The notes under the pieces are model-generated. The model was not told where the DNA came from. It ran no database searches and saw nothing but the letters and a program-made list of their open reading frames with translations. The position numbers and the translations under genes are program-made. Below, piece after piece: positions 5,539 to 55,117 of a DNA stretch of 64,000 bases (position 1 is its first letter; every line of letters begins with the position of its first letter). Source of the DNA: Halobellus captivus. Its GTDB lineage: Archaea > Halobacteriota > Halobacteria > Halobacteriales > Haloferacaceae. The DNA is taken from contig NZ_RDQE01000011.1 in the NCBI RefSeq assembly GCF_003697845.1, positions 1 through 64,000 of the forward strand. Direction: 5' to 3'.

Positions 5539-5947
5539 TCACTTACGTGGTTATCGAGCCGGTTCTAATGCTTTTCTATGCGCACGTTCGTGGGTACTAA
5601 TGGTCGATCCGTGTCGATCGACGGCGTCGTTATGATGTGAGAACGATCGTCGGTCGATCGGACGTCGTCGCCGACGTGACACCGGAGAACGTCTCCAAAG
5701 CCCCACGCGACCGCACAGCACCACCGGAAGTCGTAGCCCGCGCAGCGAACGAAGTGAGCGAGCAGGAACGTCTTCCGTACTCCCGCTCGCTTCGCTCGCG
5801 GGACCGCACCTCACACCTCCCCAGCCTCGCCACTCGCGCTTTTCAAGCGCTCGTGGCGGCCCTCGCGGTCGGGTTCGCGCCCGTCGGGCGCTCACCGGCA
5901 CGCCACCGTCGCGCTACCGTCGAACCCGCAGGCGTCGCCGGGAGGCG
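5539..5947. other. intergenic region holding interspersed element copy A
   Basis: Between the purL start and the stop of the keto-acid cleavage gene lies about 400 bases without a credible gene. It contains copy A of the structured repeat (5804-5891, minus) and an extra hairpin (CCCGCTCGC/GCGAGCGGG type) around 5780-5802. Frames that cross it translate the repeat and are not genes. Confidence 0.6.
5804..5891 (-). repeat. interspersed structured element, copy A
   Basis: Read on the minus strand: hairpin 1 (GCGCCCG/CGGGCGC, 5891-5877), box CCGCGAGGGCC (5868-5858), hairpin 2 (GCCAC..GCGCTT / AAGCGC..GTGGC, 5857-5829), then the conserved box GAGGCTGGGGAGG followed by TGTGAGGTGCGG (5828-5804). 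One base differs from copies C and D in the 25-base box. It lies 57 bases downstream of, and on the same strand as, the keto-acid cleavage gene, so it could sit in that gene's 3' UTR. Confidence 0.7.
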
Positions 5948-37243: not shown

Positions 37244-37294
37244 GAAGGTGACTCGGACCTCTGAAGGATTCCGTCGCCGCTCCGCCGGCCGGAT

Positions 37295-39019
37295 CTAGTC
37301 GTCCGCGGATCCGACCGACGTCGCCGCCCGGTCCGCGTTCGGGTCGTCGTCAGCGAGCTCCGAGAGCCGGTCGAGCGCGTCGACCATCGCGACGACGCTG
37401 GCTCGCGTGATGTCCGCGTCCGACGCCGACACCGAGACGGACCGGTCGCCGCGCGAGAGGTCGACCGCCACGGTGACGACGGCGTCGGTCCCGCCGGTGA
37501 TGGCGTCGACGTGGTAGGAGTCGAGCTCGAAGGAGACGGCGTCGACCCCGCCGCTCTCGTCCGCGAGCGCCGCACGGACCGCCTCGAGGCCGGCGTCGAC
37601 CGGGCCGGAGCCGGTGCCCGAGGCGACCCGCTCCTCGTCGCCGACGCGGAGCCGCACCGAGGCGGTCGGCAGGTTGCCGCCGGAGGTCGCCGAGAGGTCG
37701 ACGAGCTCGACGTGACGGTCGCGCTCGCGGCCCTGGACGTCCTCGGTGATCGCGAGCAGGTCCGCGTCGGTGACGCGCTTCCCGCGGTCGCCGAGCTCCT
37801 TCACCCGGGAGACGACCTCCCCGAGCTCGTCGTCGTCGACGTCGACGCCGTGGTCGGCGAGCGCGGCCGCGACGCCGGCGCGGCCGGCGTGTTTGCCGAG
37901 CACGAGCCGGCGCTCGCGGCCGACCGTCTCGGGCGGGTACGGTTCGTACATCGTCCCGTCCTTCAGCGTGCCGTCGGTGTGGATCCCCGACTCGTGTGCG
38001 AACGCGTTCGCGCCGCACACCGCCTTGTTCGGCGGGATCGCGACGCCGGTCACCTCCGAGACGCGACGGCAGAGCCGGTAGAGTCGCTCGACGTCGACGG
38101 TGTCCACGTCGTAGGTGCGGTCCAACGAGATCGCGACCTCCTCTAACGCCACGTTGCCGGCGCGCTCGCCGACGCCGAGGACGGTGCCGTGGACCGTGTC
38201 CGCTCCCGCCTTCAGCCCGGCGTGGACGTTCGTCAGCCCGAAGCCCAGGTCGTCGTGCGTGTGGAGGCTCGTCGGGCCGAGGTCGGCGAGCCGGGAGACG
38301 ACCTCGGCGGTTCGCTCGGGGCCGGCCGCGCCGACGGTGTCACAGTAGCAGACGCGGTCCGCGCCCGCGTCGAGCCCGGCACCCATGAGCCGCTCGAGGT
38401 ACTCGAGGTCGGCCCGCGAGCCGTCCTCGCCGAGCACCTCGACCCAGAGGTCGTGGTCCTTCGCGTACTCGACGAGCTCGACGGTGGTCTCGACGACCGC
38501 CTCGCGGCTCGATCCCACCTTCGTCTCGACGTGTTTGTCCGAGGCGGGCACGACGAGGTTGACGCCGTCGACGTCGCAGTCGAGCGCGCGGTCGATGTCG
38601 GACCGGACGCCGCGCGCGAAGCTGGTGACCGTCGCGTCGAGTTCCTCGTCGGCGACGCGGCGGATACCCTCGCGTTCGCCCTCCGAGGTACAGGCCGAGC
38701 CCGCCTCGATCACGTGGACGCCCGCGGCGTCGAGCTCGCGGGCGACGTCGACCTTGTCCGCGGGCGTGAGCGAGACGCCGGGCATCTGCTCGCCGTCGCG
38801 CAGCGTCGTGTCCAGTAGCTGTACCTCCTCGAGATCGGTGAATGGGTTCGGGTTCAAAAGGTTCTCCGTGGTCCGCGTCGGTGTCGTTCGGTCGGTGCCG
38901 CCGTCGGGGACGAAGCTCCGAGCGTCGGCGTGAGCGTCGGCGTGTGCGTGGGCGTTACTGTCGGCGAATTTCACGGCCAGCCGCCGTGAGGCGACTTGCT
39001 CTATCCTCCGAACGACCAC
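37295..39019 (-). CDS. 2-isopropylmalate/(R)-citramalate synthase family (LeuA/CimA)
   Basis: Condenses acetyl-CoA with a 2-oxo acid, the first committed step of leucine or threonine-independent isoleucine synthesis. The catalytic TIM barrel has LLDTTLRDGEQMPGVSL, the metal ligands in SLHTHDDLGFG, and GVGERAGNVALEE. An accessory linker and a C-terminal regulatory (LeuA dimer) domain follow. Choosing between LeuA and CimA needs phylogeny. Start is uncertain: the GTG at 39019 gives an odd His/Ala/Asp-rich lead (AHAHADAHADAR) of about 55 residues before the conserved core. A TATA box TTTTATTA lies at about 39062-39069 on the same strand. Confidence 0.88.
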   Translation of the reverse strand: MVVRRIEQVASRRLAVKFADSNAHAHADAHADARSFVPDGGTDRTTPTRTTENLLNPNPFTDLEEVQLLDTTLRDGEQMPGVSLTPADKVDVARELDAAGVHVIEAGSACTSEGEREGIRRVADEELDATVTSFARGVRSDIDRALDCDVDGVNLVVPASDKHVETKVGSSREAVVETTVELVEYAKDHDLWVEVLGEDGSRADLEYLERLMGAGLDAGADRVCYCDTVGAAGPERTAEVVSRLADLGPTSLHTHDDLGFGLTNVHAGLKAGADTVHGTVLGVGERAGNVALEEVAISLDRTYDVDTVDVERLYRLCRRVSEVTGVAIPPNKAVCGANAFAHESGIHTDGTLKDGTMYEPYPPETVGRERRLVLGKHAGRAGVAAALADHGVDVDDDELGEVVSRVKELGDRGKRVTDADLLAITEDVQGRERDRHVELVDLSATSGGNLPTASVRLRVGDEERVASGTGSGPVDAGLEAVRAALADESGGVDAVSFELDSYHVDAITGGTDAVVTVAVDLSRGDRSVSVSASDADITRASVVAMVDALDRLSELADDDPNADRAATSVGSADD

Positions 39020-40032: not shown

Positions 40033-40083
40033 AACGGGACGTGATCCCCGGACGTGGTCCTCCGTGGTGGCGCGTGCCCGTGA

Positions 40084-40190
40084 GCGCCGCCCCGCGGCGC
40101 TCGCGGACCGCGCGAGGGAGGTCGAGGGGACCCGCCGGCCCCCCCGGCGGGTCGCCGAGGCCGAGGCTGGGGAGGCGTGAGGTGTGTGCG
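40084..40190 (+). repeat. interspersed structured element, copy B
   Basis: Hairpin 1 GCGCCGC/GCGGCGC (40084-40100), box CGCGAGGGAG (40111-40120), hairpin 2 GACCCGCCGG/CCGGCGGGTC with a C5 loop (40129-40153), then the conserved box GAGGCTGGGGAGG, GTGAGGTG (from 40163), followed by TGTGCGG. It lies on the plus strand between two minus-strand genes, so it is not in either gene's untranslated region. Along with the tandem repeats it fills the 39928-40262 gap; no gene is seen there. Confidence 0.7.
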
Positions 40191-48012: not shown

Positions 48013-48031
48013 AAAACGGGCGCGCCCGGGA

Positions 48032-48118
48032 GCGGACCGTCGGTCCGCGACCGGAACGCGAGGGAGTCGCTGGCGCGGAACTGCGCCAGCGACGAGGCTG
48101 GGGAGGCGTGAGGTGCGG
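48032..48118 (+). repeat. interspersed structured element, copy C
   Basis: Hairpin 1 GCGGACC/GGTCCGC (48032-48048), box ACGCGAGGGAG, hairpin 2 GTCGCTGGCGC/GCGCCAGCGAC with a 6-base loop (48066-48093, 11 perfect pairs), and box GAGGCTGGGGAGG, CGTGAGGTGCGG (48094-48118). Similarity to copy D seems to continue for about 35 bases beyond the box. It starts 20 bases after the DUF1684 stop and may be read as its 3' end. No gene occupies 48013-48254. Confidence 0.75.
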
Positions 48119-54993: not shown

Positions 54994-55117
54994 CTCCGCG
55001 GTCGGCGCGCGCGAACCGAGCGGCGGAGCCGCGAGTCGCGCGCGAGGGAGGCCGAGGTGACCCGCCAGCGGTTCCGGCGGGTCACCGAGGCCGAGGCTGG
55101 GGAGGCGTGAGGTGCGG
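54994..55117 (+). repeat. interspersed structured element, copy D
   Basis: A long outer hairpin 1 (GGCTCCGC/GCGGAGCC, 54994-55030), box CGCGAGGGAG (55041-55050), hairpin 2 GTGACCCGCC/GGCGGGTCAC (55057-55085), and the conserved box GAGGCTGGGGAGG, CGTGAGGTGCGG (55093-55117). It lies on the plus strand, divergent from cofD, before the convergent peptidase gene. The remaining 54958-55181 gap holds the cofD promoter and no gene. Confidence 0.72.

Follow-up and report, generated by a model that had tools for sequence, protein, structure and literature searches.

Copies in the window and architecture of the element

The window (the whole 64,000 nt stretch of contig NZ_RDQE01000011.1 analyzed here) contains four copies of an element, A to D, in which hairpin 1, a CGCGAGGGA box (box 1), hairpin 2 and a second box (GAGGCTGGGGAGGYGTGAGGT, box 2) follow one another in the same order and at the same positions as in a previous sequence-only reading. 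Gene calls made with a program trained on the window placed no gene over any copy; the copies are strictly intergenic. Copy C, on the plus strand, had been placed at 48032–48118. Its end is retained, and its start lies earlier, at about 48016, according to R1, a covariance model of domain I (match at 48016..48118, 77 bits, E 2e-12), because CGCG at 48021–48024 pairs with the CGCG of box 1 at 48057–48060, enclosing hairpin 1 (48026–48054). Box 1 (CGCGAGGGA, 48057..48065), which is conserved across genera, is followed by hairpin 2 (GTCGCTGGCGCG-GAAC-TGCGCCAGCGAC, 48066..48093), with a calculated fold of −23.4 kcal/mol (z −5.6 versus base shuffles), and by the G-rich box 2 (GAGGCTGGGGAGGCGTGAGGTGCGG, 48094..48118). 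Copy A, on the minus strand, had been assigned 5804–5891 and extends over 5804..5907 with R1 (82 bits), with box 1 at 5867–5859, hairpin 2 at 5858–5829 and box 2 at 5828–5804. The plus-strand copies B (40066..40187, starting with GGTGGCGCG at 40066; box 1 at 40111–40119, hairpin 2 at 40120–40162, box 2 from 40163) and D (55000..55117, starting with GGTCGGCGCG at 55000; box 1 at 55041–55049, hairpin 2 at 55050–55092, box 2 at 55093–55117) have a longer hairpin 2 and gave no R1 match at E ≤ 0.001. As noted previously, the 25-base box is identical in C and D, 24 of 25 bases agree between A and C, and B deviates at the end alone; the hairpin 2 stems of the four copies are unrelated, and every one pairs. 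The only Rfam match in the window was the leuA-Halobacteria RNA (RF03001, 70 bits) at 38963–39015 on the minus strand.

Domain I consists of P1 and hairpin 1, box 1 (also written CGCGAGGG(A)), hairpin 2 and box 2, P1 being the helix between the upstream CGCG and the CGCG of the box. Hairpin 1 in most copies, and hairpin 2 in many, has a symmetric GA/GA internal loop between its lower and upper stems. Among 115 copies, 66 carry a tail motif after box 2. Full copies run on into a larger domain II of 131 nt (GGGTGGGACTCAAAGGGGCAG-hairpin 3-CTGGGGCTTTGG), in which CAAAG pairs with CTTTG across a symmetric GGG/GGG loop. The whole unit comprises domain I, a GYGGT-rich linker and domain II (GGGACUSAAAGGGGC, the long hairpin 3 and GGGGCUUUS). 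The conserved internal loops (GGG/GGG, GA/GA and CGYAAGCACCGCAG) are as in RNA motifs. For one full domain II, the fold is much more stable than those of shuffled sequences (z −8.0). In the window, no domain II match was found with R2, the covariance model of this domain: copies B, C and D have no recognizable domain II, and copy A retains just the 3' strand (GTGGGGCTTTGGAGACGTTCTCC, 5681..5706, minus strand), located behind inserted hairpins; the same motif is found at the end of full copies. The start of domain II (GTGGGACTGAAAG) resembles the 3' part of haloarchaeal CRISPR repeats; this likeness was dropped because its AAAG pairs with CTTT.

Several variants of the unit were encountered. 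At nine loci, double-hairpin inserts of about 47–52 nt, for example AGGGCGAGAGC..GCTCTCGCTTGAAACCGGAC..GTCCGGTGAC, lie inside copies in both orientations, and their own stems vary yet pair. Three loci of this genome represent a second kind of unit, with domain I and a different tail ending in AAAAAGGTGGATRTGCA, and without domain II. Three other loci contain tandem repeats of about 60 bp (GAGCGGCTGGGGCTTTGG..TTTATAA) downstream of domain II, which re-use its 3' end beside TATA-like motifs. Finally, hairpin 2 is absent at four loci, where CGCGAGG is joined directly to CTGGGGAGG, as if the cassette had been lost between two GAGG repeats.

Copy number and distribution

Genome-wide copy numbers were obtained from pattern and covariance-model searches. 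The 21-base core of box 2 matched 75 sites in this genome (≤3 mismatches) and none with the reversed control pattern, so that the original description as a four-copy element does not hold. The box was found in 34 of 34 other Halorubrum genomes searched, with 11 to 158 copies each (≤1 mismatch), and in only one genome of other families in the same sample. With R1, matches were obtained in 57 of 243 haloarchaeal genomes, representing 13 of 77 genera, and had different hairpins but agreed in the boxes and their order. Domain II is distributed even more widely (R2 matches in 171 of the 243 genomes and 60 of the 77 genera), with 5 to 92 copies in those genomes that were counted more fully. All matches obtained in a phylum-wide sample of genomes fell within the same taxonomic order. 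The search of haloarchaea with covariance models was one of the checks that the sequence-only reading had proposed; because it yielded hundreds of covarying copies, one outcome on which that reading was to be abandoned, four copies without covariation, did not occur. With its second domain, the element is larger than the sequence-only reading could show, its distribution is far wider, and at least some of its copies appear to be mobile.

A viral origin was rejected, since no virus carrying the element was found: the exact box was absent from viral contigs, in which 11 looser matches were unrelated, and a phage collection contained no haloviral match. Relatives of domain II are present in 145 plasmid records, which are haloarchaeal among the matches listed. 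In most of the plasmid records read, domain II forms the end of a conserved intergenic stretch, about 440 nt long, that is divergent from a gene named DNA-binding protein or replication factor A, whose match to the OB fold is weak. This highly conserved region was seen in plasmids of many haloarchaeal genera (L218:1037-1660 and six further loci) and is a candidate plasmid RNA or replication element. The plasmid relative may also help to trace an ancestral or autonomous form.

Covariation and the folded strand

Within copies, 90% of the hairpin 2 lower-stem pairs are Watson-Crick, compared with 54% (sd 1.9) when the arms were shuffled between copies (101 copies, with 39 different lower stems), and the outer stem of hairpin 1 reaches 94% versus 58%. 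Double-sided changes in domain I numbered 59 within Halorubrum, versus 18.0 (sd 3.2) by shuffling, and 134 across genera, versus 39.6 (sd 4.7), affecting 15 of 18 pairs; in domain II, they numbered 90 versus 24.8 (sd 3.9) in a MAFFT alignment, and 556 versus 171.1 (sd 10.5), at 33 of 39 pairs, for 83 model-aligned copies, figures to be read with the caveats that kinship among the copies inflates shuffle tests and that the model-fitted alignments (A3 and A4) lean toward the model. When the registers were slid, the covariation collapsed in all cases. Individual pairs illustrate the trend: Halorubrum has C-G as the outer pair of domain II where the other genera have G-C, and the second pair is A-U or G-C among the Halorubrum copies, with the partner changed every time. 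The proposal of covarying hairpins beside invariant boxes is supported by these pair counts and by both kinds of controls.

These controls bear on a further explanation, namely that the pairing is due to chance or is a low-complexity artefact of GC-rich intergenic DNA. Such DNA folds easily, and one domain I stretch folded no better than its shuffles (z −1.1). However, the 75 box matches versus zero for the reversed pattern, and covariation far above that of the slid-pair and shuffled controls, refute this explanation, and we consider its probability to be practically nil.

G.U pairs outnumbered mirror-image A.C pairs by 88 to 33 with a symmetric filter; counted per pair, the excess is 17 versus 10 and is not significant. 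This asymmetry suggests that it is the plus strand that folds. The excess fits RNA and folded single-stranded DNA equally.

Genomic setting

Among the 66 copies of this genome, 24 are flanked by convergent genes and 13 by divergent genes; for the full copies in Halorubrum (n = 69), the numbers are 30 and 7, respectively. In other genera, no preference for a gene orientation was found, and 11 head-to-head pairs occur among 46 copies. The strictly intergenic placement, the preference for convergent junctions in Halorubrum and the conservation of the copy C site within a convergent gene pair (see below) would fit an element acting as a double-stranded DNA site, for example in the nucleoid or in supercoiling, or as a 3'-end signal that terminates or protects the mRNAs of convergent genes. 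We consider this quite unlikely, because the orientation preference is missing from other genera, because the hairpin is not followed by a T-tract and because strand-specific loops and a G.U excess do not suit a symmetric duplex site.

Searches for expression signals near the copies gave the following results. A consistent promoter was not found: TATA-like motifs are present upstream of some copies only and also downstream of copies. An own promoter is doubtful, since these motifs are patchy, seem too near the start of the element and recur downstream. Nor was a clear terminator found: of 139 copies, 13 have TTTT and 10 have AAAA within 60 nt; an intrinsic terminator was rejected because no T-tract directly follows the hairpin. 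A riboswitch or 5' leader was rejected because the right-hand gene is co-directional in only 30 of 90 cases.

Orthologous sites, and probable exchange and mobility

Every relative that has the convergent gene pair around copy C also has a copy at this site, in the same orientation. Hairpin 2 at the orthologous sites is of three unrelated types, each of which pairs well, and that of copy C in the window is 47–51% identical to hairpin 2 of five relatives. In one relative, a pair of short hairpins has inserted into the box and disrupts it; except for one interrupted copy, the fold is retained in all relatives with the gene pair. The unrelated hairpins at one site point not only to compensatory change but also to exchange between copies; site and fold are kept while the hairpins are replaced by one of these processes or by both. 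The view that the stems vary with pairing kept is borne out, although pair-by-pair drift alone does not describe a site at which whole hairpins were replaced.

The gene junction of copy B is occupied in G011, G014, G019 and Hrr. cibi, and copy D is present in G011 and G026 and absent in G014 and G019. At 37244..37294 (no strand assigned), only a short spacer separates convergent genes in the window, as in G011, G014 and G026, whereas G019 has a full copy with domains I and II. Furthermore, this genome contains two pairs of copies that are 96.9% identical over 323 bp and 92.6% identical over 379 bp, with unrelated flanks. By eye, the recent copies, whose exact ends are not fixed, show no terminal inverted repeats or target duplication. 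Judging from the near-identical copies in unrelated flanks and from the empty site, the units appear to spread, and some appear to have been copied recently. Alternatively, the near-identical pairs could stem from whole-length gene conversion.

The same observations would fit a transposase-free mobile repeat that resembles PATEs or REP/BIME elements and acts in the form of a folded single DNA strand, without any RNA function. The plus-strand hairpins would then be the substrate of a trans-acting nuclease or transposase, and the boxes would be its recognition letters. Also in line with such a repeat are the dispersed, non-coding occurrence, the nesting with other short hairpin inserts, the head-to-head pairs in other genera, and a copy number with recent duplicates that is typical of mobile repeats; tandem GA and G.T pairs are stable in DNA hairpins, too. 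However, motif and R1/R2 searches of 44 TnpB and 14 Y1 loci revealed no element domains at their ends, and the sole R1 match (L262:27-103) is more than 1 kb away from the tnpB domain. A Y1 transposase was not found in five element-rich genomes (G019, G058, G134, G145 and G190), for which reason mobilization by RAYT/Y1 was rejected. In addition, the fold is retained at orthologous sites across species divergence, where an inert insertion should decay. We regard single-stranded DNA action as the main alternative, possible but not probable.

Discussion

The results describe a family of structured, dispersed elements that is real, extends across the haloarchaea and has apparently not been described before. 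No family in Rfam 15 reaches its gathering score with the element, and relaxing the E-value gave only chance-level matches, in agreement with the previous statement that it could not be named as a known haloarchaeal element. No description was found in the full-text literature, including searches with the letters of the box, a coverage that excludes most subscription journals and all supplements; some members may already figure in published repeat tables as PATEs.

PATEs and small mobile repeats of Haloquadratum are non-coding, dispersed and palindromic, and have no transposase of their own; the PATE palindromes resemble IS605 ends (PMC3119063). An expressed PATE of 489 bp has been described in Hrr. 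lacusprofundi and its virus HRTV-DL1 (PMC10544981). The family shares with PATEs the non-coding, dispersed occurrence in many copies, palindromes, nesting with other repeats and the lack of an own transposase, and some PATEs are expressed. As is typical for PATEs, the units are too short for a transposase, with no gene over the copies and a length of 323–379 bp for the recent ones. In contrast to PATEs, which were compared by description only, the examined TnpB/Y1 loci lack these domains at their ends, and the stems are freely replaced around invariant boxes. The bacterial REP/BIME/REPIN elements, which go with RAYT transposases, are likewise dispersed intergenic hairpins, often near gene 3' ends and in part head-to-head, but the element is much longer, has two domains and an unconserved stem sequence, and occurs in several genomes in which Y1 was not found. 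In its dispersed, non-coding nature and its lack of a transposase, the family works like PATEs and REPs, but a tie that helps to define each group, IS605-like ends and a Y1 transposase, respectively, was searched for and not found in the loci and genomes examined. The haloarchaeal omega/sotRNAs RF02656 and RF02657, guides of IS200/IS605 TnpB (PMC12558985), are also structured haloarchaeal RNAs of mobile elements; the element matches neither family, and an IS605/TnpB omega-RNA was rejected because it adjoins none of the 44 TnpB loci. With structured RNA families of the Rfam type, the element has in common strong covariation, conserved unpaired boxes and the absence of a protein product. As expected for a conserved structured RNA, its pairs are kept through double-sided changes more often than in shuffled and slid controls. 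Unlike such families, it reaches up to 158 copies per genome, its hairpins are replaced as a whole, and it has no Rfam 15 match.

The explanation that we favor, to which we give an even chance, is that the family is a structured RNA spread as transposase-free dispersed units. Of the two functions suggested previously, a structured RNA is well supported, whereas a cleavage or processing signal is not. Selection would preserve how one strand folds, along with the unpaired boxes, but not the letters of the stems. The acting molecule would be RNA, transcribed by read-through or from an own start, and the hairpins would display the boxes, which a protein would bind and read. Alternatively, the boxes may form a compact core, perhaps a G-quadruplex, in the high-K+ cytoplasm. 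Now and then, the whole unit would be copied into a gene junction and yield a new copy, and hairpin cassettes would be swapped between copies. It is conceivable, if rather doubtful, that the family is a new class of structured non-coding RNA, specific to haloarchaea, whose members also proliferate in genomes, an archaeal analogue of SINEs. In that case, it would be the RNA fold itself that is maintained and copied, and hairpin cassettes could be exchanged around boxes that stay invariant.

If the fold acts as RNA, haloarchaea hold an unusually abundant family of structured RNAs. If it acts as folded single-stranded DNA, the family is a mobile repeat, and its enzyme recognizes the shape and the short boxes instead of the stem sequence. 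The covariance models and coordinates render the family testable in tractable species. Either way, the replacement of whole stems at a fixed site, with pairing and boxes kept, is a natural experiment on selection in nucleic-acid folds.
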